The position numbers were made by a program, and so were the translations under genes. 64,000 bases of DNA. It comes from Liolophura sinensis (taxonomy: Eukaryota > Mollusca > Polyplacophora > Chitonida > Chitonidae). Each line of letters begins with the position of its first letter. Within the stretch, counting starts at the first letter, position 1. Positions 668 to 55,642 of this stretch are shown in pieces. The DNA is taken from the NCBI RefSeq assembly GCF_032854445.1, contig NC_088297.1, forward strand, positions 1,526,639 to 1,590,638, given 5' to 3'. The notes under the pieces were generated by a model. It was not told the DNA's origin and searched no databases. It worked only from the letters and a program-made list of their open reading frames with translations.

Positions 668-1210
668 CTAGTCAAGAGTGTACAAGAACGAATAATCATT
701 CCCTGGTTCATGTCTTGAATTGTACACCTTCAGGGCATGCTCGAATTCCTTTCGCGAAATCACGCCGTCATTGTTGGAATCCATCTTGGCGAAGGTAGAG
801 CGGATGAATTCCTCACTTTTCACTCCTTGCATCGTGTAGTAATTCCGCCACTCCTCGAAACTAACTGTGCCGTCTTTGTCTATGTCCATAATATCAATAA
901 AAGCCATTGTGGCAGTTGGTATTAGTTCTCTGAGGTACCAATCCTGTTTGCTGACAATAGTTTGAGCCTTAACCCAGTCATCCTGACCCACTGACGCCTC
1001 GTCTTTAGGTTTGCCCAGGGCCTCGAGGATGGAGTCCCAATGCTTTTTGTAAGCTCGCGCTAAAACAAAGGCGTGTTCCACTTTTCCAGCACGTAGAAGC
1101 TGGACAGGATACTCCATGGCTTCAGCAAAAGTGAACTTGCCGGTTTGACTGAAGTTTGCGAACTTGAAAAGCGCCGTCCACTTCTTTTGTATATACATGT
1201 CCAAATCCAT
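668..1210 (-). CDS. EF-hand calcium-binding protein, sarcoplasmic CBP-like, copy 1 (main coding exon)
   Basis: Predicted cytosolic calcium buffer of the sarcoplasmic calcium-binding protein type. The exon encodes 180 residues. The N-terminal EF-hand is degenerate (NFSQTGKFTFAEA). Two canonical loops follow: DIDKDGTVSFEE near residue 109 and DSNNDGVISRKE near 145. The C-terminus NDYSFLYTLD resembles the family's usual aromatic tail. The ATG abuts a splice acceptor (TTTCCTAG on the minus strand). The same acceptor precedes an Ile codon in copies 3 and 4, so this ATG may be internal and the true first exon may lie further upstream. It is nearly identical to copy 5 (24746-25288) and sits inside the recent duplication. 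Calexcitin-like or luciferin-binding-protein-like naming is possible; the EF-hand assignment is firm. Confidence 0.88.
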   Translation of the reverse strand: MDLDMYIQKKWTALFKFANFSQTGKFTFAEAMEYPVQLLRAGKVEHAFVLARAYKKHWDSILEALGKPKDEASVGQDDWVKAQTIVSKQDWYLRELIPTATMAFIDIMDIDKDGTVSFEEWRNYYTMQGVKSEEFIRSTFAKMDSNNDGVISRKEFEHALKVYNSRHEPGNDYSFLYTLD

Positions 1211-2458
1211 CTAGGAAATGTGGTGAAAGGTAGACGTTATACCAAGGGAACACATTGAGTAAGCAAAAAAGTGTATAAACAAGTAAAAATGGCATTTAAA
1301 TGATACACTCTGAAGATATTTTGGTGAGTTGTTAAAGAAAAAAACAACCACAAATGAAAAAAATTTACACAATTTTAAGACCTTCTCAAGAGGGGAGAAA
1401 CTTCTGATCTATTTCAGATTTTAGGGAGGAAAAATCCTGCTAGGGGCAAAATCCTAATATCCTGTATCGATCAGAGGAAAGCGCAACACCTCACCGAGGA
1501 CAGGCCACTCTGCTACAGTCTGTTTCTTTTAAATTTTTTTCCGACATAAAATCCCAAGTGTACATACATATAATGTACATACATTTTAATTTATCATCAA
1601 TATTCAGCTCTCCTTAAAACCAATCGAATTTACTACCAAACTTGACTTTTGGTAGCAACACGCAGTACAATCTGATTAATACATTCATATGTTGGACTTC
1701 CATATTTTTATTTGGAAAATATTGCCAGAGCAGCTTTTCTTATTTATACTTTTGAGCTCCATAAGCTTGGTAACAACAGGAACGCAAGGAATCTGAGAGG
1801 GTCATTAATACTGGTATTTAAAAGCGGGTGGCATTCTGGACAACAGGTGGGTAATGTCTTTTACAATAGCTTCGCAAATATGTGGTTAGAACAAAATTGC
1901 AAATAGCTAAATTTGGGTGACAAATGCAAAAAAAAAAAACAGGCTATAGAGGTACCGCTACAGTGAGAATTGAGTGAGAAGGTATATACAAGGTATAGGA
2001 AACACACAAGCTGCACCTTACCAGGGATAGACACGCTGCTAGAAAATGTTATAGATTTAGGTATAAATTATGAAAATGAAAACAGAAAATACACAAACCT
2101 TAAAGGTAATAGTAGAACTTCAACGCGCCAAACATAAACTGTACCGTCAGGTGTCGAGAAGTATAATGCGGTTAGCTTTATATCGTGAACTCATGTTAAC
2201 TGATGCTTAAAAGTATGTTTTTTCATCCGATGTGCACCGCTGGTTACGCAAGAGGTTGTCAAACGGTCGTAAAACCGAGCTAAAGAACTGAGCTGTACAT
2301 GTAAAAAAAATGATACACACCCGAGGGGACACAAATTATTTTTTTTTGTATAATGATAAAGGTTCATGGTGGTTGTACCTGTTCGTGTGCTCTGGATACC
2401 CAAAGCTTGCATACCGATCACGCAAAATTGATACACAAATAGTATAAAGAGTGAATAG
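1211..2458. other. Upstream or intronic flank of EF-hand copy 1
   Basis: No coding sequence recognised. It contains one diverged unit (about 1944-2045) of the ~98-base repeat that is tandem at 26575-26915. A first exon of copy 1 may be hidden here, but I could not identify it. Confidence 0.5.
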
Positions 2459-3225
2459 TGTTACGACCCAAACTGTCTGTATTATAAAGAGATGGCTTGT
2501 TCGAATTACACGACAGTTTAGCCGCACAAAAAAGTAACCAAAACCAGCAGATTTTATTTTACAACAATTTATAAGCTTAACAAGAACAGATAATAAGACT
2601 TATACAAATACTAAAGTACTTAAGTTTAACGAAAGGATAGCAGTATCTATACAAATACTAAAGTACTTACGGTGTCAAGTCCAAACGGACGTATATATTC
2701 CACAATATATATACCACACAGGCATTAATGCTCAGGGGCAAATTCACAAGAGGGAAAATCCACAGCATAACTGAGTGTATGACGAAATATACACAAAATT
2801 TAACAGACAGGGTCCGTGTACTAATAGACACAGTGTATACAAGAGCACAAATTAAACATACAAGTTCAGACTGAACAAGTGCTCGGTGGAGATATGATAT
2901 AACAAAGCCAGAGGCTATAGAGACACCAAAATTCAGCACAAATGGCCTACTAAAGTAATACACAGCAAAAGCATCCAAGCTCTCAATAATTCTCCTTTCT
3001 CCGTTCTCTGTTCTCTCCGTTTGACCTGCTTTCATAGGTCTTATATAGCCTGCTGGAATTTTCTAGAATAAGAAAATTCCTGAACACTTGATGTAAACAA
3101 ACAGGCACCGAACTGAGCGCATTCTGGAATATTCTAAGGTAGAGGCAGGCAGCAGGCGCTGAACTCAGCGTATGTAAACAGTGGCAAGCTAAATTTAGAA
3201 ACTGACGGCAGTCGTGCACATAACA
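2459..3225 (-). mobile_element. Solo LTR A (Gypsy-like), 767 bp
   Basis: On the sense (minus) strand it begins TGTTATGTGCAC and ends GGGTCGTAACA, giving TG...CA ends. A 4-base target duplication ATAG flanks it (2455-2458 and 3226-3229). A TATATAAG box and AATAAA signals match copies at 15297 and 16223. No internal retroelement region is present, so it is a solo LTR left by LTR-LTR recombination. Confidence 0.8.
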
Positions 3226-23869: not shown

Positions 23870-24620
23870 AATATTTCATTTCTGTGTACAATATAGTGAC
23901 ATGAATATATCTGAATACTTTGTGTGACTCCTGCTGAAATCATCTACACAATATAGTGACATGAATATACATGTACATGAATTCTTAGTGTGAATCTTGC
24001 TGATTTCATCTACACTATTTTGTGACATGAATACTATGCGTGAATCCTGCATATTTCGTTTACACAATATACGGACATAAATACATCTGAATTTTTTCTA
24101 TGACTCCTGCATAATTTGTTTACATTTGATAATGACATGGATGTACAAGTATGCCACTACATAGTGTGAATCCTGCTGATTTCGTCTACACTATATAGTG
24201 ACGTGAATATATGTACATCTGAACATTGAGTGTGAATTCCGCATCATGCTTTCACACTATATAGTGACATTAACACATGTACAATCTGAACATTGAGTGT
24301 GAATTCTGCATCCTTCGTTTACAATATATCGTGACATGAATACATCTGAATACTTAGTGTTGAGTCTGCATAATTCGTCTACACTGCATAGTGACATGAA
24401 GACATCTGAAAAATAGTGTTTCCTGCTTAGTTTGTTTACACAATATAATGGCGTGAATACATCTGAATTGCTAATGGGGATACTGCTAAATTCGTCTACA
24501 CTAGAAAGTGACATGGCTGTACGTTTATGAGATTACTTAGTGTTAATCCTGCCTATTTTGTATACACGAAAAAGTGACATGAACACTACTGAATACCCAG
24601 TGTGAATTTTACTTATTACG
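23870..24620. repeat. ~60-bp minisatellite 3' of EF-hand copy 5
   Basis: Same unit as at 60-540. From 24079 on it is nearly base-for-base the same array as in block A1. Confidence 0.85.
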
Positions 24621-26568
24621 ATTACTCCTCTGCACAGTGGTGTCAATATAACATTTCTTTACCCAGAGTCTTTCTGATTAATTTTGTCGAGAAGGTGGTG
24701 CCCACGAAGCATTTGGTCACCTTGAGACAGTCCGATTGATTTCGTCTAGTCAAGAGTGTACAAGAACGAATAATCATTCCCTGGTTCATGTCTTGAATTG
24801 TACACTTTCAGGGCATGCTCGAATTCCTTTCGCGAAATCACGCCGTCATTGTTGGAATCCATCTTGGCGAAGGTAGAGCGGATGAATTCCTCACTTTTCA
24901 CTCCTTGCATCGTGTAGTAATTCCGCCACTCCTCGAAACTAACTGTGCCGTCTTTGTCTATGTCCATAATATCAATAAAAGCCATTGTGGCAGTTGGTAT
25001 TAGTTCTCTGAGGTACCAATCCTGTTTGCTGACAATAGTTTGAGCCTTAACCCAGTCATCCTGACCCACTGACGCCTCGTCTTTAGGTTTGTCCAGGGCC
25101 TCGAGGATGGAGTCCCAATGCTTTTTGTAAGCTCGCGCTAAAACAAAGGCGTGTTCCACTTTTCCAGCACGTAGAAGCTGGACAGGATACTCCATGGCTT
25201 CAGCAAAAGTGAACTTGCCGGTTTGACTGAAGTTTGCGAACTTGAAAAGCGCCGTCCACTTCTTTTGTATATACATGTCCAAATCCATCTAGGAAATGTG
25301 GGAAAAGGTAGACGTTATACCAAGGGAACACATTGAGTAAGCAAAAAAGTGTATAAATAAGTAAAAAGGGCATTTAAATGATACACTCTGAAGATATTTT
25401 GGTGAGTTGTTAAAGAAAAAAACAACCACAAATGAAAAAAATTTACACAGTTTTAAGACCTTCTCAAGAGGGGAGAAGCTTCTGATCTATTTCAGATTTT
25501 AGGGAGGAAAAATCCTGCTAGGGGCAAAATCCTAATATCCTGTATCGATCAGAGGAAAGCGCAACACCTCACCGAGGACAGGCCACTCTGCTACAGTCTG
25601 TTTCTTTTAAATTTTTTTCCGACATAAAATCCCAAGTGTACATACATATAATGTACATACATTTTAATTTATCATCAATATTCAGCTCTCCTTAAAACCA
25701 ATCGAATTTACTACCAAACTTGACTTTTGGTAGCAACACGCAGTACAATCTGATTAATACATTCATATGTTGGACTTCCATATTTTTATTTGGAAAATAT
25801 TGCCAGAGCAGCTTTTCTTATTTATACTTTTGAGCTCCATAAGCTTGGTAACAACAGGAACGCAAGGAATCTGAGAGCGTCATTAATACTGGTATTTAAA
25901 AGCGGGTGGCATTCTGGACAACTGGTGGGTAATGTCTTTTACAATAGCTTCGCAAATATGTGGTTAGAACAAAATTGCAAATAGCTAAATTTGGGTGACA
26001 AATGCAAAAAAAAACAGGCTATAGAGGTACCGCTACAGTGAGAATTGAGTGAGAAGGTATATACAAGGTATAGGAAACACACAAGCTGCACCTTACCAGG
26101 GATAGACACGCTGCTAGAAAATGTTATAGATTGAGGTATAAATTATGAAAATGAAAACAGAAAATACACAAACCTTAAAGGTAATAGTAAAACTTCAACG
26201 CGCCAAACATAAACTGTACCGTCAGGTGTCGAGAAGTATAATGCGGTTAGCTTTATATCGTGAACTCATGTTAACTGATGCTTAAAAGTATGTTTTCTCA
26301 TCCGATGTTCACCGCTGGTTACGCAAGAGGTTGTCAAACGGTCGTAAAACCGAGCTAAAGAACTGAGCTGTACATGTAAAAAAAATGATACACACCCGAG
26401 GGGACACAACTTATTTTCTTTTTGTATAATGATAAAGGTTCATGATGGTTGTACCTGTTCGTGTGATCTGGATACCCAAAGCTTGCTTACCGGTCACGCA
26501 AAATTGATACACAAATAGTATAAAGAGTGAATAGTGTTAAGACCCAAACTATCTGTATTATAAAGAGA
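24079..26568. repeat. Recent segmental duplication, block A2 (partner 1-2493)
   Basis: Right edge is an abrupt switch at about 26568, after some 35 bases of the terminal LTR sequence seen at 2459-2493, into the unrelated ~98-base tandem repeat. Confidence 0.93.
24746..25288 (-). CDS. EF-hand calcium-binding protein, sarcoplasmic CBP-like, copy 5 (main coding exon)
   Basis: Encodes the same 180 residues as copy 1 except for one Gly-to-Asp change in the EALGKPKDE segment. Both calcium loops (DIDKDGTVSFEE, DSNNDGVISRKE) are canonical. The ATG again abuts a splice acceptor, so the transcript probably has an upstream exon. The near identity over coding and non-coding DNA shows the duplication is recent or the two blocks have been homogenised by gene conversion. 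An assembly artefact from two haplotypes is unlikely, because single-copy DNA separates them and their outer flanks differ. Confidence 0.88.
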   Translation of the reverse strand: MDLDMYIQKKWTALFKFANFSQTGKFTFAEAMEYPVQLLRAGKVEHAFVLARAYKKHWDSILEALDKPKDEASVGQDDWVKAQTIVSKQDWYLRELIPTATMAFIDIMDIDKDGTVSFEEWRNYYTMQGVKSEEFIRSTFAKMDSNNDGVISRKEFEHALKVYNSRHEPGNDYSFLYTLD

Positions 26569-29547: not shown

Positions 29548-30041
29548 CTAGTGTAGAATGTACAAAAACGAATAAGCATTCCCTGGTTCATGTCCTGTAT
29601 TGTACACTTTCAGGGCATCATTATTGGAATCCATCTTGGCGAAGGTAGAGCGGATGAATTTCTCATATTTTACACTTTGCTTCGTGTACCACCTCTCCGC
29701 GAAAGTAATTGTGCCGTCTTTATCTATGTCCGCAATGTCAAAAAAGCCATTGTAACAGTTGGTATAAGCTCCCTGGTACCAATCCTGTCTGTTGGCAATA
29801 GTTTGACCTATAACCCAGTCCTCTTTACTCGCTGACGCCTGGCCGGCCTTTGGGTCTGTCCAGGGTCTCGAGGATGGAGTCCCAGTGCTTTTTGTAAGCT
29901 CGCGCTAAAGCAAGGGCGTGTTCCACTTTTTTGGCACGCGGAAGCTAGACTGGATACTCAAAGACTTCCGCAAACGTCGACTTGCTGGTTTGACTGAAGT
30001 TCGTTAACTTGAAATGCGTCGTCCACTTCTTTTGTATGTAC
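29548..30041 (-). pseudogene. EF-hand calcium-binding protein copy 6, pseudogene
   Basis: Clear relative of copies 1 and 5 (YIQKKWTT, RAYKKHWDSILE, DIDKDGTITF, RSTFAKMDSNND). It is broken by a CAG-to-TAG change in the EYPVQLLRA motif (near 29948), by small indels around KPKDEAS and around the strand after the second loop, and by a 30-base deletion near 29619. That deletion removes the GVISRKEFEH part of the third calcium loop. The deletion is in phase, but the loop is destroyed. The C-terminus YSFLYILH and a TAG stop remain. I see no way for it to give a functional protein. Confidence 0.85.
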
Positions 30042-34100: not shown

Positions 34101-37100
34101 TGATACTTATCAGAAGTTTTGCCAGTTCTTTTGTTTCTGTCACTGTCAACTGGCTGACCTATTCCAGTCAAGCATGATGAATTATTAAACCAATAAAGGG
34201 AACATTTGATCAATTAGTCATTTTCGAATCTGCCATTAGCAATACTTATGGATACAGTATAACATAATATTTCGAAAACGACTGCCGTGTTAAGATTAAG
34301 GAGGATTCTTGATAACAATGGGATATGGGATAAAATCATTTTCCATCATTACCCATTCTAAGAAACCATCAACGTGAATACACATTGTTTTGTAAATAGG
34401 CATTACATAGCTAATGGAGTAGTAACGCAAACACTATAAATATGGACCCTATTGTCTCAAATCAAAATCATGTTGAAACTCGGGTAAGTGAGATAATGTT
34501 AATTGCTAATTTTTACTCACAGGGCGGATTGTGACTTCTCTCTTCCTCATTCGGAGATCCTGTAAGTTGAAGTCGTAGTTCATGTCCTCGGCAATTGGGT
34601 TGAGTTCCACGCCCTGCCGGAAGTGACGCACACGTACTGCTCGTCCAGCCAAATGGGTGTGCAGTAAGGCGCCAACAATTTTGATTTCATTGACTTTCCC
34701 CGCCGCCATAGACTAATACAAAAAATATTGGTGTATTGCTTTTGCCCCCCCCCCCCCCACCCGCAAAAAAAAAAAAAACAAACAAAAAAAATATATATAT
34801 TCTTTTAGGTTTAAGACAAATGTTCTAATTTTATTACAGCTACTGTTGAATGTTACTTTAAACAGCAACGTCAGACTTTATGGTCTTATTATATAAGTAT
34901 GTATACTACTTTGCCGATGAAATATATTTTGTTTTGCTAAATTTAAACACCAATTCATCAGAATTAAAACTTTTTAAGTTAGTCCAGTGAAAACTCCTGA
35001 AACATGTACAAATAGCACTTGTTTATGTATAGTTTTGTTCAGATTCACAATTATGTTGTTGTTGTTGTCTGAGTGCAAATATATAAAAGAATAGTGTATG
35101 TAAAACTATAGTTTTCATTTGAATCTCATCTGAATAAGTCTATAAATGTCTACCTTAATTATTTATTTATTTGATTAGTGTTTTACGCCATACTCAAGAA
35201 TATTCCACTTATATGATGGCGGCAAGCATTATGGTGGGAGGAAACCGTGCAGAGCCCGGGAGAAATCCACGACCATTCTCATGTCACTGCCAGACCTTAT
35301 CACGTACGGCCAGAGAGGAAGCCAGAATGAGCTGGACTTGAACTCACAGCAGCCGCATTGATGGGATGCTCTTGGGTCATTACACTGCCCTATCGTGCTA
35401 ACTAACTGAGACAAGGACGCTCTTAAATGGCTACAAACCTCTTCGTAACATTCCGAAAGACAGTGTGTGACTGTAAGAAAGTTCGGCTCGTAAGGGGGGA
35501 TAATCTGGGTAGGACCTGGATTTGTTCCGGTGGACAAGATGCCTGCGTCATACTGCCTCAGTTCCTGTGTAAAGATAATTCTCAGTCCAGACGAGTCTAC
35601 GATTCCTGTAAATCAAATGTGTAAATATTTCTTCACCCTTACAATCCTCATCTTTATATGCCATATAAATGTTCCTGATAACTATACCAATTACTATTCA
35701 GCGATGCTACCTGTACACGTGGTCACTCATGTTACACTGTTTAATACGCCAGATAATTAACTTAGCACCACATTTACTTACAAATACATGTCTATATCTT
35801 ATATTAATTATCTATATAGATTAGAAATTAATCAACTCGTGAAATTAGGTCCAGTAAATACTTATAAACTAAAGATATTCCCTACCATGGTTGGTGGAGT
35901 TTCCGAGCATGTGCTTCCTTTATACCTATCCGTATATATATTATGGGTGACTTAAATCAGTATAGGGTGGCAAATGGGGCTTGGAATAATTTTTTATACC
36001 ATAAATAAAATCGAATGTTAAGTTACTGAAGTTTTACGAACAACTTTGCTGTGCAATTATAGCACAGAGTTCATGTCTTGGTCTTTGTATTATTTCTATT
36101 TTTTCTATGCTCTGTAATCAACAATTATCAAGCATAATTTAAATTTGTCACTTTATTTCTCGTAGCTTACTTGCTCAAAGTAAGTTCAACCTCTCCTCTT
36201 ATTCTAAACTGGATGAGGCCTACACCTTGTTATGTAACCGATATAATTATGATATTTTATGCGTCTCAGAAACCTAGTTTGATTCTGATATACCAGATGA
36301 AATAGTGAACCTAAATGGATACTGTATAGAACGAATAGAGACCGTTGTGTGGGTGGAGTAGAGATATATTATAAGTCATTAAATAGTGTTATGCGTAGAC
36401 GGGATTTAGAAAATGACAATGAAATGATATGGGTTTCAATCAAACAGTCTAATAAACATATACTGTGTTCTGTTGGCTATCGTCCCTCGAACCAGTCTTC
36501 ACAAACACACGATTAGTTTCCAGTTAACTTAGATAACATCCTCAACTCAGCTCTGGCAGAAAATCCAGAACCCTTGATATTTATGAGGGATTTTAATGAC
36601 AGGTGTGTTGATTGGTCCAAATACCACGATAAGAGTTAACTAAAAATGAAGTTGTTTGATATATTTACAAGTAAAAGTTTATTTTAGTTAATTAATGAGC
36701 CCACAAGATATAGCACTGGATCTTCATGTATTTTAGATTTAATCATACCAGATAGTATCGATTATGTAACTGAATATGGAGTAGCTTCGCCAATGGTCAC
36801 TCTTGTCCATTGTTCTGTATATTATACCTTAAATATTCTGGTAAATGATAAACAAAAAGCACACAAAGGACACATATGGGACTTTAAATGTGCTGACTTA
36901 ATACAGCTTCGCTAAAGTATCTCTACTACTCCCTGGGAAGCCGTGATACTGAAAAAGCTAATGAGTTCGTTAGATTTTTTGTAAGCCATTCAACTCTTCC
37001 GTCAGTAATACCAGTTTTACCTTTATTGACCTATTATACTGCTGCACGCCTTAATTGTATACACACAGGTGAAATGGAAGTAGCTGATTTATTGTCCAAA

Positions 37101-40100
37101 CTAAACATTAGGAAAGCTTCTGGTGTTGATGGAATTAGTAATTTCATGCTCAAAAAAAAAACAACAAAAAAACAAAAAAACAAACAAAAACAGAAACCAA
37201 AAAAAAAAAAAAAAAACAGCGGTAAATATAGAACCTTACCTCACTAAACTATTTAATTTCTCACTTCACTCAGAAGTCTTTCCGTCAGCTTGGAAACTAT
37301 CTAGAGCATTCCCTGTCTTTAAGGGAGATAGACATGATAAATCAAGTTAACAGACGAGTTTTTCTACAGCCCTGTCCCTCTCTTAAGTGCTAGAAAAAGT
37401 AGTATATAAGCACTTGTATGAATATTGTATCAACCATTACCTTCTAACATCGAAAAATTCTGGATTTAAACATGGCGACTCAACCATATGTCAGTTAACT
37501 AAAATTGTACACGTTGTATACGGATAATGGTAATGATACGTGCTTAGTTTGCCTAGATGTAAGCAAGGCTTTTGATAAAGTCTGGCATGAGGGTCTTTTG
37601 TTTAAATCGAGATAGTTGGATGTTTGGGACACATTGCCTACATAGATTAAGAATTATTTACCTTATAGAAAAATTAAAATTTGTTTAAACGGATTATGTT
37701 CAGACATATATTCTATTTCAAGTGGAGTTCCACAAGACTCCGTTCTACGACCGCTTCTTTTCCTAAGTTTTATAAATGACATAAATGTGAACATTGAATG
37801 TATATCAATATTTTTGCTGATGATACATCTTTGTCCGAAGAGATGACTGAGTTATTACATCTGAAAAAAAAATAAATCGAGATCTAGGTCGCTTGTCTCA
37901 ATGAGCCAAACAGTGGTTAATAACATTCAATGCACAGAAAACTGTATAATTATTTGTTTCCTTAAAAAAGAACCCGATGTACCCAAAATTCTATTAAGAT
38001 GGTACTGAAGTGAAGAGCTTTTAGTACCACAAACACCTTGGTATCATTCTACAGCACGATGGTAAATGAGACGAACATATAAGATCACTCGTAAATAAAT
38101 GTAATAAGAAATTAGGTATTACCACATAGAGTGAAGAGAATATTAACAAGTAAGTGTTTAATGACTTTATACAATAGCCTCATTAGATCTACAATAGAGT
38201 ATGGCGAAATATTATATGATAACTGTGGTATTGCGCTTTCCCAAAAACTGGAAAATGTTCAACGCCGAGCAGTTTTGCTCTGTACAAGTGGAATGCGTCG
38301 TACATCAGATAAAGCTCTGCTGAGTGAACTTAATTGGACACCAATATATATGATGGTCGTAGACAAAATAGGATTCTGCTATTTTGTAAAATTGTAAATC
38401 GACTTTCCCCGCCTAAATGATGGCTAAATGATTTTTCTTACTGCAAACTAAGTTTTGTCCCATTGATACCATGAGGCCTGGAGGCTCGATTCTACTACTT
38501 TTTCAGAATGGTCACAATGTATATTTAGTAAAATTACCATCATTTACACTTGCTGATCCGGCTTTAGCTGTCATTTGTCACTATTTCTATCTGCAAAAAT
38601 TACCATCATTTACACTTGCTAACCTGGCTTTAGCCGTCATTTGTCACTATGTCTATCTGCAAAAATTACCATCATTTACACTTGCTAACCTGGCTTTAGC
38701 CGTCATTTGTCACTATGTCTATCTGCAAAAATTACCATCATTTACACTTGCTGATCCGTCTTTAGCCGTCATTTGTCACTATTTCTATCTGCCAAAATTA
38801 CCATCATTTACACTTGCTAACCAGGCTTTAGCCGTCATTTGTCTCTATGTCTATCTGCAAAAATTACCATCATTTACACTTGCTAACCTTGCTTTAGCCG
38901 TCATTTGTCACTATGTCTATCTGCAAAAATTACCATCATTTACACTTGCTAACCTGGTTTTAGCCGTCATTTGTCACATTGTATATCTGCCAAAATTACC
39001 ATCATTTACACTTGCTGATCCGTCTTTAGCCGTCATTTGTCACTATGTCTATCTGCCAAAATTACCATCATTTACACTTGCTAACCTGGCTTTAGCCGTG
39101 AATTGTCATACTGTATATCTGCCAAAATTACCATCATTTACACTTGCTTACCTGGCTTTAGCCGTGAATTGTCATAATGTATATCTGCCCAAATTGCCAT
39201 CAGCCGCAAATTGCCACAGTGTATATTCCGTAAAACTACCATCATTTACACTTGACTTACCAGGCTTTAGCTCTGAACTGTCACCATGTATATCCGGTTA
39301 AGTTACCATCATTTACACTTGACTTACCAGACTTTAGGCGCGAACTATCACAGTCTATATCCGGTGAGGTTAACATTTTTTATACTTGCTTATCAGATTT
39401 TAGACGTGAACTGTTACAATGTACATCCGGTGAAGTTACCAAAATTTACATTTGACTTATCAGATTTTAAGCGTGAACTGTCACAGTGTATATGTGGTAA
39501 AGTTACCATCATTTACACTTGACTTATCAGACTTTAGGCGCGAACTGTCACAGTGTATATCCGGTAAAGTTACCATCAGTTATACCTCTTTACCGGATTT
39601 TAGACGTGGACTGTCACAATGTATATCCGGTAAAGTTACCATCATTTACACTTGGCTTACCTGACTTTAGCTGCGGATTGTCATAATGAATCTCCATAAG
39701 TAGAAGAGTTGGGTCTTCGTCTGTACCAAAGGGCATTCCCGTGTGATCCGGCAGGTATGTACTCTGTAACATCAACAGGTAATAAGGGAAGCGTTGTAAC
39801 AGGTGCAGACAAGCGGTTACACGTAAGTGATCCTTGGAGAACGACGGGAATTCCCTCGTACATCTACTTTATTGGATATGCCACAACACACAACAACCTC
39901 TTAAATGCAAAATTATTCAAAATGTTTCAAATGTAGGGCTTTAATACAGCATGTACAATATTTTATGGATATCAGACACTTTTTTGGAAAATATCAGCAC
40001 CATAGGTGTAAAATTTTAGCACCATAAGTGTAACATTTCAGAAAGATAAGTGTAAAATTTTAGAAACATAAATGCATTAGTGTTATAACAGCAACACGTG

Positions 40101-43100
40101 TGAGAACGTGATGGCATTCAGGAGACTTGAGGCCACTCTGACTGACATTTAAACTTTTATGAATGCAAGTTAACATTTGATGCTGTTTTAATACTATCAT
40201 AATGAAACTTTTATGAACGTCTGATAACTATTGAACGATGTTTGGAAAACAGCATTGCTTATGTTTGAAGCCTGACAGAGGATAACGAATTTAAGTGGGA
40301 TGTTTTAGACGCTAATGAACTCTCTTAGTCATGCCTTTCTAACGCCAAGGTTATTACATTCAGCACATCTACATACATATGAATGCCAGATTCATTACAT
40401 TAAGTTAAACGTGACGGAGACCTCCGTGGCTCAGCTTTTTAGCGCCATAGCGCAGCGTGATAACCCAGCAGTCTCTCACCAATGCGGTCGCTGTGAGCTC
40501 AAGTCCAGCTCATTCTGGCTCCCTCTCCCGCCGTGCGTGGGAAGGTCTGCCAGCAACTTGCGAATGGTCTTGGGTTTCCCCCGGGCTCTGCCCGGTTTCC
40601 ATCCACCATAATGCTGGCCGCCGTCGTATAAGTGAAATACTCTTGAGTACGGCGTAAAACACCAATCCAAAAAAAAAAAAAATAAGTAAATCCATGCATG
40701 ACGAGTTAACCACCAGTCCCTTGAATACTCTCACCACAAGAGTATTAAAACCACAGTTTAATGTTGAATAGTTAGACTTAACACAAGAAAACATGAGCAT
40801 TTCATCCAAAAAAGTTGAAAATAACGACACAACATCTCAGCTTCAATAAAGGTCGGACAACTTCATCAATATTACAAAACACAGTGAAAAAAAGTCTTAC
40901 CCCTCCACCAATAGCCCAGCCGAAGTAGAGGGCGTTGCAGTTCCACCAGTCGAGCGGCATATTCCTGTGCTGACACTGGTGTTGTACGTTGAAGCTGGAG
41001 TCGCTCACGTTGTTCAAGCAGCCATAGATCAATATGTGATGCACGTGCATTTCGTGGCCATCTTGAATAATTGGATCTATCTGCGTAAAAAAGAAAACTA
41101 CTATTTAACATTTTGCTTTTATTTTACCTGGTAAGAATATCTAGTCTTGTCAATATACGGGATACGCTGATAGGATAACACTGGATGAAATAGAGCATCT
41201 CGTTATCAATTAAACCTAAAATTAATTTAATTGATTAATGTTTTACGCCGGTGGTCAGCTTCACAGGTAGGGACACCGAATTAAACCATTGTGGCCGAGT
41301 GGCGTGGGTGCCAAAAGTCGTTGGTTTACTCTGAGCACTCCAGTGTCAACCATAATAGATAGATACTGCCAGTCATCGCATCAGTAAAAAATCCTCAAGT
41401 AATGCATTAGACTACAACACACATAAATTAAACAGCATGTCGTTCTGAGCCACGGGCCTGGCTAAGGTAAGTCGGCTGTATGTGTGTACACGAATTGTCC
41501 TGTATTCAGTATGGTGACTTTTAAAATGTTTCATCTATTTGTTTATTTATTTATTTGATTAGCGTTTTACGTCGTACTCAGGCATATTTCACTTATACGA
41601 CGGCGGCCAAAATTATGGTGGAAGGAAACCGGGGACTTAAAGTGTGGACACAGTATTACTGTATACAAGCTCAATCTTAGGAATATCTGTCTTTCTCTTC
41701 AATTTTTCGAGGGGCCTTCGACTTCTTCGCTGTCCATGCCACACGTGCACGAGGGCAGGTATAGACTATTTCGTGTTCAAAAAGTTAAAAAAATATGTAA
41801 CAGAGCAGTATTTCATACTGGCTTTTTCAAACCCCAAAGTCTCCAATATTCACCCCGATCAAATGATGTTTTCTGCTGAACTTTGGTGGGCGAAATGACC
41901 GACATGAGTAATAGGTGTCTGTGGATGGTATCTCAACCTGTAAAGATACGGGAAAAAATGAGACATTCTTGAGGTATTTTCTCATTTAGCAATAACAAAT
42001 GAGCAAGGAAGTACAAGTAAGCAACAATATAATGATTCCGTCCATTTTTTTTTCGTTAAATTCAAAGATACTAATCTCACAGAGGACATGTATTAAAAGT
42101 CTTATTGTTAAAGCATGACAAAGGAAGACAGGAAACAAGAGAAGCAGGAAAAGAGAAGAAGAAATGCTGCACTACCCAGCCCTGCGTGTTCCATACAGCT
42201 TTAGATGGCCAATTTAGAAAAAGCGTTCTCAGTTTAACTATTTATCTCATTGGTGTTTTACACCGTACTAAACAATATTATACTTATGGGACGGCGGCCA
42301 GCATTATGGGGAGAGGGAGCCGGAGAAGACAAGTTAGCCGCAGGTTGCCTGCAGACCTTCCCACATACGACAGCCTAGGCCTAGCTGGATTTGAATTAAT
42401 ACAGACCGCATTGACAAGAGGCCCCTGGGTCACTGTTCTTCCCCGGCTAGCTAATAAAGGTCACTATCTTTCACAGGTCGTTAGGGAGTTATTTATTTTT
42501 TTGATTGATGTTTTACGCCATGCTCACAAATATTTCACCTACACGATGGCGGACAGCATTATGATCGCAGGAAACCGGGTAGAGTTCGTGGGGCATCCGC
42601 AGGTTGCTGCAGACCTTCCCATGTATGACCAGAGAGGAAGCCAGCTTAAAGCCAGACATGAACTTACAACAATATCATTGGTGGGAGCCGTTGCGCCGCG
42701 CTGGCGTGCTAAACCCTTCGGCGACGGATGCCCCTTATGCGGCTCGAGCTGATAAATATTTACAGTCTGCATAGATTTGAAAACGTGTTAAAAATTGTCA
42801 CGTCATGCTCGTCTCTCTGTGTGAATGTATGAATGCTGTGTAGCTACTATCTACTTAGATTTATTGGTTGAGTCGTCTACTCCTTTGGTTAACCACGCTT
42901 CGTTGAGCGAGACTATCCCTAAGGCTATCGCATTTAATTTTCATAATTACTCATTTGCCCTTAAAACAAATACACAGCCAAGCATAGCGATAACAGAGTG
43001 TCAAACGACAAATATTGTGCTATATGCTTGTTACCTTACTTATTTGCTGCCCTGTTTACTGGCTTTTAATGTTTGTGTGTCAGCTAGGTTGCATGTGTCT

Positions 43101-46769: not shown

Positions 46770-47390
46770 GTCATAATCTGGCCTGGGGGTAGTGATGGGA
46801 AATGTTATTTATAAAAAAGGCCTCCAGGCACAACGCTTGATCATTCATATTATCAAGCCAAGAGGAGAAGTATGTGATTAGTGTCTTGGTTAATCACAGG
46901 CATAACCGGCGGTTGTAATTGGTACACGTGACTCATCAATTGAAGTTAACAGTCATTGTATATTTTGGTCAATGGAAAAGTCATTAAATCTGCCCAAGGT
47001 CTGGCCAAAAGAGAGAAAACCTACTCACCACAATATAAACAATACACCACCTTGAACTAGACATAGGTAAAATATTCAGTTGACTTCAAATAAGCCTACC
47101 CCCAAGTTAATTTCAGGTGGAAAGGCTGAGGAAACACCTTTTAAGGCAGAAGTTGTATTTCTATATTTCTATGTATGTGAACGTAAACTGAAATGTGCCT
47201 AGTACTACTTACCTCTACAAAACATGGGCGAATAATTCGATAGCAGTTCCGTAAATATAAAAGTGCTAGTGACTTCCCCTGAATTTTACAACACACCACC
47301 TTTAAAGAGTTTAATGCCAAGAAGGTATTCCCATCATGATGTCATTGTTGACATTAGCATATATGCAAAGTATGATTTAAAGTCTTTAAT
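46770..47390. other. Upstream of the MOXD1-like gene, no gene recognised
   Basis: Nothing coding recognised apart from the CACGTG site at 46925-46930. Confidence 0.45.
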
Positions 47391-47396
47391 ACTTTT

Positions 47397-47650
47397 TTTA
47401 TTTATTTCATTGGCGTTTTACGCCGTACTCAAGAATATTTCACTTATACGACGGCGGCCAGCATTATTGTGGGAGGAAAACTGGCAAAACCAGGCGGAAA
47501 CCCACAACCATCTGCACGTCGCTGCAAGACCTTCCCACGCACGACCAGAGAGAAACCCAGCATAAGCTGGACTTGAACTCACAGCGACCGCATTGGTGAG
47601 AGGCTCCTGGGTCATTACGCTGCGCTAGTGCGCTAACCAAATGAGACCGG
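47397..47650 (-). mobile_element. tRNA-derived SINE, near full length
   Basis: Tail TTTATTTCATTGGCGTTTTA; head complement CTAACCAAATGAGAC. Confidence 0.88.
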
Positions 47651-48199: not shown

Positions 48200-49917
48200 C
48201 GGGCACTGATTGGATAACACTACCACACAGACATTATAGATTGTTGATACATTACTGACCGGATAATACTACCATATAGACATTATAGATTGTTGATACG
48301 TTACTGACAGGATAATACTACCACATAGACATTATAGTGTGTTGATACATTACTGACTGGATAATACTACCATATAGACATTATAGATTGTTGATACATT
48401 ACTGACAGGATAATACTACCACATAGACATTATAGTGTGTTGATACATTACTGACTGGATAATACTACCGCATAGACATTATAGATTGTTGATACATTAC
48501 TGACCGGATAATACTACCATACAGACATTATAGGTTGTTGATACGTTACTGACTGGATAATACTACCGCATAGACATTATAGATTGTTGATACGTTACTG
48601 ACTGGATAACACAACCACACAGACATTATAGATTGTTGATACATTACTGACCGGATAATATTACCATATAAACATTATAGATTGTTGATACACTACTGAC
48701 TGGATAATACTACCGCATAGACATTATAGATTGTTGATACATTACTGACTGGATAATACTACCGCATAGACATTATAGTCTGCTGATACATTACTGACTG
48801 GATAATACAACCACAAATACAGTGTAGGTTGTTGATACATTACTGACTGGATAATACAACCACAAATACATTGTAGGTTGTTGATACATTACTGACCGGA
48901 TAATACAACCACAAATACATTGTAGGTTGTTGATACATTACTGACTGGATAACACTACCACAAATACAGTGTAGGTTGTTGATACATTACTGACTGGATA
49001 ACACTACCACAAATACAGTGTAGGTTGTTGATACATTACTGACTGGATAACACTACCACATAGACAATATAGTCTGTTGATACATTACTGACTGGATAAT
49101 ACAACCACAAATACATTGTAGGTTGTTGATACATTACTGACTGGATAACACTACCACAAATACAGTGTAGGTTGTTGATACATTACTGACTGGATAATAC
49201 AACCACAAATACATTGTAGGTTGTTGATACATTACTGACCGGATAATACAACCACAAATACATTGTAGGTTGTTGATACATTACTGACTGGATAACACTA
49301 CCACAAATACAGTGTAGGTTGTTGATACATTACTGACTGGATAATACAACCACAAATACATTGTAGGTTGTTGATACATTACTGACCGGATAATACAACC
49401 ACAAATACATTGTAGGTTGTTGATACATTACTGACTGGATAACACTACCACAAATACAGTGTAGGTTGTTGATACATTACTGACTGGATAACACTACCAC
49501 AAATACAGTGTAGGTTGTTGATACATTACTGACTGGATAACACTACCACAAATACAGTGTAGGTTGTTCATACATTACTGACTGGATAATACTACCACAT
49601 AGACATTATAGGTTGTTGATACATTACTGACTGGATAATACTACCGCATAGACATTATAGTCTGCTGATACATTACTGACTGGATAACACTACCACAAAT
49701 ACAGTGTAGGTTGTTAATACATTACTGACTGGATAACACTACCACATAGACATTATAGGTTGTTGATACATTACTGACTGGATAATACTACCACATAGAC
49801 ATTATAGTGTGTTGATACATTACTGACTGGATAATACTACCATATAGACATTATAGATTGTTGATACATTACTGACTGGATAACACTACCACATAGACAA
49901 TATAGTCTGTTGATACA
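48200..49917. repeat. 49-bp minisatellite, about 35 units
   Basis: Unit core TTGTTGATACATTACTGACT then GGATAATACTACCA. Two unit types alternate in blocks: type 1 ends CATAGACATTATAG and fills both ends; type 2 ends CAAATACAGTGTAGG and fills about 48790-49570. Confidence 0.97.
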
Positions 49918-49919
49918 TA

Positions 49920-50320
49920 ATAAGTTTTGCTCCTAGTTAAACTATATCATAATTTATCTGTTTTGATGAAACACCAAGTATGCTGTTAAAATTGCTGGAG
50001 ATTTCTGATCTTCCAGCAATATGGTGCTCATAACTGTGCATTGAACATCACACAAATTAAAGGTCGACAGTGACTGCTCCGTGACTTTGTCCTGGGGAAG
50101 CCCACTCTCCTCTAACCGCTATATAAATAAAGTCATTAAAAGGGCATTAATTGGTAAACAGATCAGTGACCCACTGGTATATGTCCTCATCGTCGGGATT
50201 GCTTGTTATTTCCATGCTTGTTACTTTGCTTTACAGGCAGGTTTAAATTTTTTTTTTACTTTTGTAAACACAATGCAATCAAATATTTTCTTTATACATT
50301 ATTTGTATTAAATAATATTA
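49920..50320. other. Intergenic, nothing recognised
   Basis: Short AT-rich stretch with no recognised feature. Confidence 0.45.
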
Positions 50321-50324
50321 TTTA

Positions 50325-50596
50325 TTTGGTTTGTTTGATTGGTGTTTTACGCCGTACTCAAGAATATTTCCCTTATACGACGGCGGCCAACATTATGTTG
50401 GGAGGAAACCGGGCAAAGCCCACGGGAAACCCACGACCATCTGCAGGTTTCTGGCAGTCCTTAACACGTACAACCGGAGAGGAAGTCAGCATGAACGTGG
50501 CCAACATGAACTTGAACTCACAGCGACCGCATTGGTGAGAGACTCCTGGGCCATTACGCTGCAATAGCGGGCTAACCAACTGAGCCACGGAGGCCC

Positions 50597-52500: not shown

Positions 52501-52764
52501 GGGGCCTCCGTGACTCAGTCGGTTAGCGCGCTAGCGCAGCGTAATGACCCAGGAGCCTCTCGCCAATGCGGTCGCTGTGAGTTCAAGTCCAGCTCATGCT
52601 AGCTTTCTCTCCGGCCGTAAGTGGGAAGGTCTGCCAGCAACCTGCGGATGGTCGTGTGTTTCCCCCGGGTTCTGCCCGGTTTCCACCCACCATAATGCTG
52701 GCCGCCGTCGTATAAGTGAAATATTCTTGAGTACGGCGTAAAACACAAATCAAAAAAAAAAAAA
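52501..52764 (+). mobile_element. tRNA-derived SINE, full length, well preserved
   Basis: Head GGGGCCTCCGTGACTCAGTC, B box GAGTTCAAGTCC, 12-base A tail. One of the least mutated copies here. Confidence 0.92.
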
Positions 52765-52769
52765 TCCTA

Positions 52770-53450
52770 CCACTTCATCCTCACACCAACACCCTATTTA
52801 ATATAACAGTAGGAATATATCCTTTATATTTCCCACACCATCCCTACAGCTGTATACCTGGGCCCCGTTCTAGGAAGCAGTTGCAACATTCTCCTCAGGT
52901 AATTTCCATGAGAACATACAGTTAAGAGATACCGGTATACGTCAACACGGTAAATGCGCTTGACGCAACAGAGCGACAGTTTTGTAGAACGTGTCCCACG
53001 TGAATAAGGCGTCAGTGCAGGGAGCGGCTTCTAGATCTGACTAGCGTGATTTTATCCTGCATTAGATAGGCCACGTTCAGCTAAGTTAAAATACTGACAT
53101 TCATCGGTTCCTAACAGGACAAACTGCATATTTGTACCCGAAAAATTAGTTCACGCCCTTTATACACATGGGAGGTAACTGAAAAAATACACCCTCCAAA
53201 AAGTGCTTTGCGGGTTACTTGCCCCTTATCATAGCGCATTTAAAGGCAATAACAGGGATGCACACATAATATATAGCCGACGAAACGTCACACACTACCA
53301 AGTTATTCAAAGTTTCAGGCCTATCTGAACATGTTTGCGTTTCGGAAAACCGGAGCAGAAAAGGACTTTAATTTTAAAAGAGTAACTCAAACAACAGATT
53401 TTCTGTGAAATATAAAACATTCGGTATTCATTTGTTGAGTGTATAAATAT
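52770..53450. other. Intergenic, nothing recognised
   Basis: No repeat or exon-like structure seen. Confidence 0.45.
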
Positions 53451-53535: not shown

Positions 53536-53744
53536 GACGCATAATTGTGTTCAGGATAACAACTATCAGGCGCACATACAGAGAAATTTGCCACTGCGAT
53601 ATTTTGTAGTTTCCATTTCTGTACAGCCTCAGGTACTACTAGTTTCGCCAGAATACATTGTGTTTTTGTTATGAAAAGAAATGTCAGATCGGCTACTCCT
53701 GGGATTGTATGCAACCAGTCAGTGTCGAGTTGTACTGTCTAAAT

Positions 53745-54825
53745 GAGGAATCTTTTAGAGAGGAATAAGGAATCATGAAGAATCATTTAGAGAGGAATGA
53801 GGAATCATGAGGAATCATTTAGAGAGGAATGAGGAATCATTTTAAGAGGAATGAGGAGTCATGAAGAATCATTTAGAGAGGAATGAGGAATTATGATGAA
53901 TCATTTAGAGAGGAATGAGGATTCATGATGAATCATTTAGAGAGGAATGAGGAATCATGAAGAATCATTTAGAGAGGAATGAGGAATCATTTAGAGAGGA
54001 ATGAGGAATCATGCAGAATCATTTAGAGAGGAATGAGGAATCATGAAGAATCATTTAGAGAGGAATGAGGAATCATGAAGAATCATTTAGAGAGAAATGA
54101 GGAATCATGAAGAATCATTTAGAGAGGAATGAGGAATCATTTAGAGAGGAATGAGGAATCATGAAGAATCATTTAGAGAGGAATGAGGAATCATGAAGAA
54201 TCATTTAGAGAGGAATGAGGAATCATGAAGAATCATTTAGAGAGGAATGAGGAATCATTTAGAGAGGAATGAGGAATCATGAGGAATCATTTAGAGAGGA
54301 ATAAGGAATCATGAAGAATCATTTAGAGAGGAATGAGGAATCATGAAGAATCATTTAGAGAGGAATGAGGAATCATGAAGAATCATTTAGAGAGGAATGA
54401 GGAATCATGAGGAATCATTTTAAGAGGAATGAGGAATCATGAAGAATCATTTAGAGAGGAATGAGGAATTATGAGGAATCATTTAGAGAGGAATGAGGAA
54501 TCATTTAGAGAGGAATGTGGAATCGTGAAGAATCATTTAGAGAGGAATGAGGAATCATGAAGAATCATTTAGAGAGGAATGAGGAATCATGAAGAATCAT
54601 TTAGAGAGGAATGAGGAATCATTTAGAGAGGAATGAGGAATCATGAGGAATCATTTAGAGAGGAATGAGGAATCATGAAGAATCATTTAGAGAGGAATGA
54701 GGAATCATGAGGAATCATTTAGAGAGGAATGAGGAATCTTGAGGAATCATTTAGAGAGGAATGAGGAATCATGAGGAATCATTTAGAGAGGAATGAGGAA
54801 TCAGGAGGAATCATTTAGAGGGCAT
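53745..54825. repeat. 32/22-bp minisatellite
   Basis: Unit types GGAATGAGGAATCATGAAGA plus ATCATTTAGAGA (32 bases) and a 22-base form lacking the second AATCATGAAG. About 34 units with very low divergence, so the array is young or actively homogenised. Confidence 0.97.
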
Positions 54826-55213: not shown

Positions 55214-55512
55214 CGGGGCCTCCGTGGCTCAGTTGGTTAGTGCGCTAGCGCAGCGTTGTTGACCCAGGAGTCTCTCACCAATGCGGTCGCTGTGAGTCCA
55301 GCTCATGCTGGCTTGCTTCCAGTTCATGCTGTCTTCCTCTCCGTCCGTACGTGGGAAGGTCAACCAGCAACTTGCGGATGGTTGTGGGTTTCCCCCGGGC
55401 TCAGCCCGTTTTCCACCCACCATAATGCTGGTTGCCGTCGTATAAGTGAAATATTCGGTGAAATATGAGTACGGTGTAAAACACCAATCAAATAAATAAA
55501 TAAATAAATAAA
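55214..55512 (+). mobile_element. tRNA-derived SINE, full length with small internal duplications
   Basis: Two copies of a CAGTTCATGCTG-like segment near 55295-55335 and a doubled GTGAAATAT near 55446-55465. (TAAA)n tail. Confidence 0.9.
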
Positions 55513-55642
55513 CCCCAAGCACTCACTTACACACAGAATTTCTGTTAAATTTAACACATTAATTTTTCAGTGTATAGGATACAGTAATCACCTTTATAGT
55601 GGGAGGAAATTGTGAGCGAGCGGTTGAAAGGTGAGGTACGCG

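Follow-up and report, generated by a model that had tools for sequence, protein, structure and literature searches.

A mirage-like minisatellite array at the exon 6 donor of a copper monooxygenase gene in the chiton Liolophura sinensis

We have identified, at the 3' end of exon 6 of a copper monooxygenase gene of the chiton Liolophura sinensis, an array of 66-bp units each of which is derived from the junction of the exon with its intron. Such arrays are known in lancelets under the name of mirages, and the chiton array is a known kind of feature in a new lineage, which recurs elsewhere in the same genome. We assign a probability of about 0.8 to the reading that the array is a mirage, mainly a tolerated by-product of a minisatellite-dense genome and a latent source of new exons and introns. 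The unit, its register with the splice site, its origin from the exon, the coding consequences of its splice signals and the further cases in the genome are established directly. The window referred to below is the whole stretch of 64,000 nucleotides analysed (G000:C3:1526639-1590638), and genome-wide counts cover 609 Mb in 632 contigs. The genome was first filed as Liolophura japonica and the species has since been corrected to L. sinensis (PMC12441733).

The host gene lies on the minus strand and encodes a copper type II monooxygenase of the DBH/MOXD1-like type, its joined exon peptides matching the Pfam families PF01082 (2e-26) and PF03712 (1.4e-16). We take MOXD1 to be the appropriate name for it. 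A structural match is dopamine beta-hydroxylase (PDB 4zel, E 1.2e-32), the alignment with which places the HYDNP motif of the gene opposite HYHNP. The histidine of HYDNP in exon 6 is presumably a copper ligand. A DOMON exon situated upstream probably belongs to the same gene.

The array has been reported by Tandem Repeats Finder in two parts, 38530-39202 (66 bp x10.2, 91% matches) and 39215-39671 (67 bp x6.9, 80% matches). Read on the sense (minus) strand, it is comprised of 17 units including the authentic one, referred to as u0, and the copies u1 to u16 (39632-38531) follow in register with the exon boundary. The count of about 17 units of 66 bp given in the earlier note holds when u0 is included, with units of 66-67 bp; 16 copies lie in the intron. 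The tandem unit spans both exon-end and intron-start sequence, the authentic boundary is the outermost unit, in register and at the edge of the array, and the interior is homogenised relative to a diverged edge (91% distal against 80% proximal matches), the divergence being found at one edge only. None of u1-u6 has a CAG directly before the exon-like half, and in u6 a unit and a truncated one are fused into 108 bp. By eye, an ACTT microhomology is present at either end of the duplicated stretch. An assembly error behind the 1.1-kb array is unlikely, because the HiFi reads average 8,347 bases according to the assembly report (PMC11068029).

Table 1. Exon 6, its intron and the array units in the window, with the two clear boundary arrays found elsewhere in the genome (window positions unless a contig is named)
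Feature	Position	Strand	Description	Basis
Exon 6	39661..39763	-	103 nt; starts in phase 0, ends in phase 1; ...LLMEIHYDNPQLKS-G	splice-consistent translation
Authentic 5' splice site (inferred)	39655..39663	-	CAG/GTAAGC, GT at 39660-39659	reading and U1-duplex energy
Intron 6	35606..39660	-	4055 nt; holds the array; acceptor TTTACAG, then exon 7 from 35605	splice-consistent translation
u0	39633..39698	-	38 nt of exon 6 end and 28 nt of intron 6 start	register with array, shuffle tests
u1-u6	39191..39632	-	more diverged, period mostly 67; GT lost in u2-u4; exon-like halves without stop in exon frame	
u7	39125..39190	-	nearest to exon, 82% over exonic 34 nt; donor CAGGTAAGC same as authentic	
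Hypothetical mini-exon u7	39152..39184	-	33 nt after GGGCAG, phase 1-1; would insert DIHYDNSRLKP	translation
u8	39059..39124	-	79% to exon over exonic 34 nt; donor CAGGTTAGC	
Hypothetical mini-exon u8	39086..39118	-	33 nt, phase 1-1, stop-free; would insert DIQYDNSRLKP	translation
u9-u16	38531..39058	-	homogenised; TGA in exon frame 8/8; GCAG acceptor-like motif 8/8; GT lost in u9, u13, u16	
Partial unit, distal array edge	38509..38530 (about)	-		direct reading
Kinesin donor array (L071), clear	G000:C11, match 1501-1668, array 1605-3168		73 bp x21.6; exon end CSPASYNESETKSTLMFGQR and donor	
Kinesin acceptor array (L058), clear	G000:C8, match 1501-1710, array 773-1529		64 bp x11.8; TTGTACAG and exon start EAMSINKSLS	

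The likeness of the array to the exon end exceeds that of shuffled sequences. The last 38 nt of exon 6 score 38 against the array, to be compared with a best score of 28 among 2000 shuffled exon ends and of 26 among 1000 shuffled arrays. With the last 8 nt removed the exon end scores 27, a value reached by one of 2000 shuffled queries (maximum 29) and by none of 1000 shuffled arrays (maximum 25). Control fragments of equal length (five, all taken from this gene) reach 13-14 against the array, and the intron half of the unit scores 51 against a shuffle maximum of 33. The core 18-mer of the intron half, AAGTGTAAATGATGGTAA, has 16 matches in the window at no more than three mismatches, with 0.15 expected. 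Its exact copies number 14 in the 609 Mb, 13 in the array and one alone on C1, where direct reading of the surroundings has revealed no array; the core is essentially locus-specific. A DNA search of the genome with the whole stretch, by a tool that skips common words, has returned the self-match alone. Both the repeat and its likeness to the exon end, as seen in the earlier note, are real, and the comparison of the unit with the exon end has held against shuffled sequence.

The array could instead be a dispersed satellite or a chance similarity bearing no relation to the exon, and the window does hold many other arrays of 58-67 bp. When nine of their units were compared strand-wise (18 comparisons), one of the results lay above 300 shuffles and two others gave p 0.03 and 0.05. 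The shuffle tests, the exact splice-site register and the near locus-specific core refute this explanation, which we consider to have almost no chance of being right. A kinship with the other arrays of the window has also been considered in its own right and found to be weak, the array at 206 (minus strand) being the single one exceeding 300 shuffles; BLAST of the array against the remaining window gives a best E of 0.91. The direction of the duplication is indicated by the paralogues. A protein search of the genome has yielded 35 monooxygenase exon matches, and counterparts of exon 6 have been identified in eight paralogous genes (L042-L048 and L050), with none found in L049. In all eight, as read from the alignment, a HYDNP-like motif precedes the exon 6 boundary, whose codon and phase are shared, and in none of the eight is the exon end or the intron start repeated in the intron beyond what is obtained with shuffles (p 0.14-1.0). 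Because the same boundary exists in 8/8 paralogues without copies, the exon came first and seeded the array. The reverse direction, in which an intronic array that already existed supplied the exon end, has found no evidence in its favour; it is refuted by the conservation of exon end and boundary in these array-free paralogues, the alignment of the encoded HYDNP with HYHNP of dopamine beta-hydroxylase also speaks against it, and we give it next to no credence. Origin by duplication of the exon/intron junction, as proposed in the earlier note, is thus borne out by the register, the scores above shuffles, the near locus-specific core and the eight array-free paralogues that share the boundary.

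The copies have not changed evenly along the unit. The intronic 18-mer is identical in 13 of the 17 units (38534-39653) and the exonic half is far less constant, the mean identity of the copies to u0 being 96% in the core and 68% in the exonic half. Identity to the exon end over the exonic 34 nt is 74% in the exon-adjacent u1, u7 and u8 having the higher values given in Table 1. Through u7-u16 the donor-flanking core is unchanged (column-shuffle p 0.02). Such constancy is not predicted for a purely neutral array. That the core lacks CpG may account for some of this constancy, and a factor bound at this site could conceivably be its cause. In u1-u6 the minimum numbers of changes by codon position are 9, 1 and 7, which is suggestive of a coding constraint, on few sites and in units that have no acceptor.

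Splice signals are preserved in many of the copies and not in all. The donor GT is kept in 10 of the 16 (u1, u5-u8, u10-u12, u14 and u15), an acceptor-like CAG immediately precedes the exonic half in 10, namely u7-u16 only, and seven possess both. The earlier note had assigned two motifs to each unit; the donor-like GTTAGC is present in six of the 16 copies, the acceptor-like TTTTTGCAG in five and both together in four (u11, u12, u14 and u15). Duplex energies have been calculated with the 5' end sequence of U1. The authentic donor has -11.0 kcal/mol, u7 is equal to it, and the other nine units with GT range from -4.1 to -8.8 kcal/mol, u1 having -5.5 kcal/mol. For all 10 later GT donors, read-through from exon 6 meets an early stop after GKPSVNDGNFTGYTL, and by translation the use of a later donor amounts to 15 added codons and a stop. 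The mini-exons of u10, u11, u12, u14 and u15 contain TGA, and u9, u13 and u16 have a TGA and have lost the GT as well. To call each unit a potential mini-exon was therefore too strong: u7 and u8 are free of stops, and the idea would fit these two units at most, since GT and CAG are each found in 10 of the 16 copies and together in seven.

The steps that we propose begin with a tandem duplication across the exon/intron junction (38 nt from the end of exon 6, 28 nt from the start of intron 6), followed by expansion, probably via slippage or unequal exchange. Coding constraint would keep the exon-side copy intact, and the copies would end up inside intron 6, diverged close to the exon and homogenised farther off. 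The spliceosome most likely takes the first, exon-adjacent donor, as this has the best match to U1, tied only by u7, and the array would be removed with the intron. If a later donor were used now and then, the truncated product described above would follow, and splicing-in of u7 or u8 from time to time would lengthen the protein in frame by 11 residues that contain a second HYDN or QYDN loop. On these terms the array is presumably tolerated. Since many of the copies keep intact splice signals, such tolerance would require good discrimination by the spliceosome.

Two functional roles could be put in place of tolerance. The array may be a regulatory decoy or a cluster of poison exons, in which occasional later donors or mini-exons lead to nonsense-mediated decay and less enzyme. 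The retention of GT in 10 of the 16 copies and of CAG with GT in seven, the stops reached via later donors and within the mini-exons of u10, u11, u12, u14 and u15, and the very constant intronic core are in accordance with such a role. The proximal units that would compete best are, however, weak or dead (u2-u4 without GT, u1 at -5.5 kcal/mol), the array is absent from 8/8 paralogues, and comparable arrays occur in unrelated kinesin genes, so that we consider a decoy unlikely. The other role, in which u7 (and u8) would function as an alternative mini-exon and insert a second copper-ligand loop, appears more unlikely still. The length of 33 nt, the phase 1-1 and the freedom from stops would suit it, as would the u7 donor, which equals the authentic one, the HYDN retained in u7 and the position of u7 as the copy closest to the exon; yet the u7 acceptor, ending in GGGCAG, has by eye a poor pyrimidine tract, and an 11-residue insert beside the ligand would probably be harmful.

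Arrays of the mirage type have been found at other exon ends of the chiton genome. The sample consists of 60 exon matches with 120 ends, taken best-scoring first (30 of 35 monooxygenase and 30 of 132 kinesin matches), to which three myosin exons of 81 matches were added, making 126 ends in total; the match ends lie only near the true exon ends. A boundary scan with Tandem Repeats Finder has flagged 12 loci, and six non-focal loci have been graded with 1000 shuffles each for exon side, intron side and junction. Six of the 126 ends, including that of exon 6, lie in mirage-type arrays; leaving out exon 6 the figure is 5/124, the doubtful L015 being excluded from both, and it is 2/124 when clear cases alone are counted. 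Four of the six belong to one gene family. No boundary array was found at the three myosin exons.

The two clear cases belong to kinesin genes (Table 1). In L071, as in L058, none of the 1000 shuffles matched the exon side, the intron side or the junction, and with the authentic unit counted GT is kept in 20 of 21 units of the former and AG in nine of 12 units of the latter. A wholesale loss of splice dinucleotides from copies is not seen in these two large arrays. L017 (19 bp x3.8, donor) is a fair case, with 0/1000 shuffles for the junction and 3/1000 for the 20-nt exon side. The donor array of L021 (23 bp x3.7) and the acceptor array of L025 (23 bp x2) both give 0/1000 for the junction, with 59/1000 and 53/1000 for the 20-nt exon side, and have about 10-12 exonic nt per unit. 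An intact copy lies on the exon side in all five of these further cases. L015 (104 bp x2.2, acceptor; junction 2/1000) has been dropped to doubtful, as its 20-nt exon side is no better than shuffles (329/1000). Five other flagged loci (L012, L070, L076, L082 and L054) were on reading not mirages. Smaller boundary arrays are seen in the enzyme paralogues L048 (2742-2827 and 3300-3371), L044 (reverse, 839-884) and, doubtfully, L015 (1281-1514).

Arrays of period of at least 12 make up 12.6% of the window and 1.4% of the exon-match letters. They span 14% of the positions flanking the 60 matches, and at distances of up to 50 bp from a match their coverage is 8%, overlapping flanks of one gene entering these figures more than once. 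The arrays are dense here, and from these proportions (14% of flank positions against 8% near the matches and 1.4% within them) splice sites are not preferred by them. It seems that tandem duplication strikes widely and that copies crossing a boundary survive as the outermost one still works.

Several other features accompany the array in the window. A plus-strand open frame of 289 aa (38432-39301) has been rejected as a gene; it encodes a 22-residue repeat, KLPSFTLANLALAVICHYVYLQ, and remains open because the 66-bp unit is 22 codons long, so that one frame free of stops stays open in every copy. It has two Pfam hits, with no single stretch passing alone. Beside the distal end of the array, broken plus-strand frames at 36301-38397 are, by their motifs, what we take to be reverse-transcriptase-like, and one of them, of 66 aa, has no Pfam match. 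An interspersed repeat with a frame like FDWCFTPYSRIFHLYDGGQHYGGRKPGRARG is seen, for example, at 40451-40730, 47236-47624, 50170-50567, 52535-52774 and 55229-55566, and large arrays lie at 48205-49918 and 53743-54820 (49-bp x35 and 32-bp x35.6). Two arrays with near-identical consensus units, 85-332 and 24163-24410, lie about 24 kb apart, and an EF-hand exon (24746-25288) has a similar frame at 29548-29904; the paired arrays and EF-hand frames suggest local duplication. No structural RNA has been matched in the window at the Rfam gathering threshold. Elsewhere in the assembly, contig G000:C99 has seven COX1 matches spaced about 15.5 kb apart and is probably a concatenated mitochondrial genome, an assembly artefact; the mitochondrial COX1 is interrupted by stops when translated with the vertebrate code and stays open with codes 4, 5 and 9, in keeping with an invertebrate.

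The lancelet reports describe mirages in Adh3, the globins BflGb6 and BflGb9, PGBD5 and troponin C, as minisatellite-like tandem duplications over an exon/intron boundary, 5' or 3', with units of 10-160 bp (PMC3087553, PMC3902484). The globin work proposes that new introns can arise from them, and its RT-PCR results pointed to normal splicing (PMC3087553, PMC3902484). The chiton array is similar in that many copies, not all, keep AG or GT and in its homogenised interior and diverged edge. It differs in residing in a copper monooxygenase with 16 copies (the kinesin donor array having 21 units) and in being known from DNA, where the lancelet globin splicing was judged by RT-PCR. In the open-licence literature, seen mostly at the level of listings, the name mirage was met only in the lancelet reports, and no mollusc mirage was found.

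Related systems have been described elsewhere. Human genes of segmental duplications have variable minisatellites at an exon-intron boundary that are said to switch on cryptic splice sites and to give rise to novel introns (PMC2812944). Those are recent paralogues with transcript support, whereas the chiton array has a near locus-specific core 18-mer and is read from genomic sequence. Intron gain by tandem duplication likewise involves a duplicated stretch that reaches across an intron/exon boundary and brings splice signals along; there the new intron is spliced, while the chiton copies are only potential introns or exons (PMC4974935, PMC3443670). In an earthworm metallothionein locus, exon duplications that are missing from transcripts are perhaps related to mirages (PMC12783039). 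A minisatellite with multiple splice donor sites in the human interferon-induced gene 6-16 (IFI6) is listed among the references of PMC2572611. It resembles the chiton array as a repeat supplying several donors, and differs from it in that the chiton unit is of 66 bp and its donors are predicted. The 6-16 unit is reportedly short, with its donors used in transcripts.

A bolder view, which we put forward tentatively and hold to be rather doubtful, is that chitons are a second animal lineage with standing mirages genome-wide, perhaps at a few per cent of exon ends, and that some copies, such as u7 or kinesin copies whose splice sites are intact, are already spliced as in-frame mini-exons or introns. 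If this were true, the chiton genome would be a place to watch the birth of exons and introns under way. That a mollusc has boundary arrays at several of its exon ends suggests that, where a genome is dense in minisatellites, tandem duplication generally gives rise to them.
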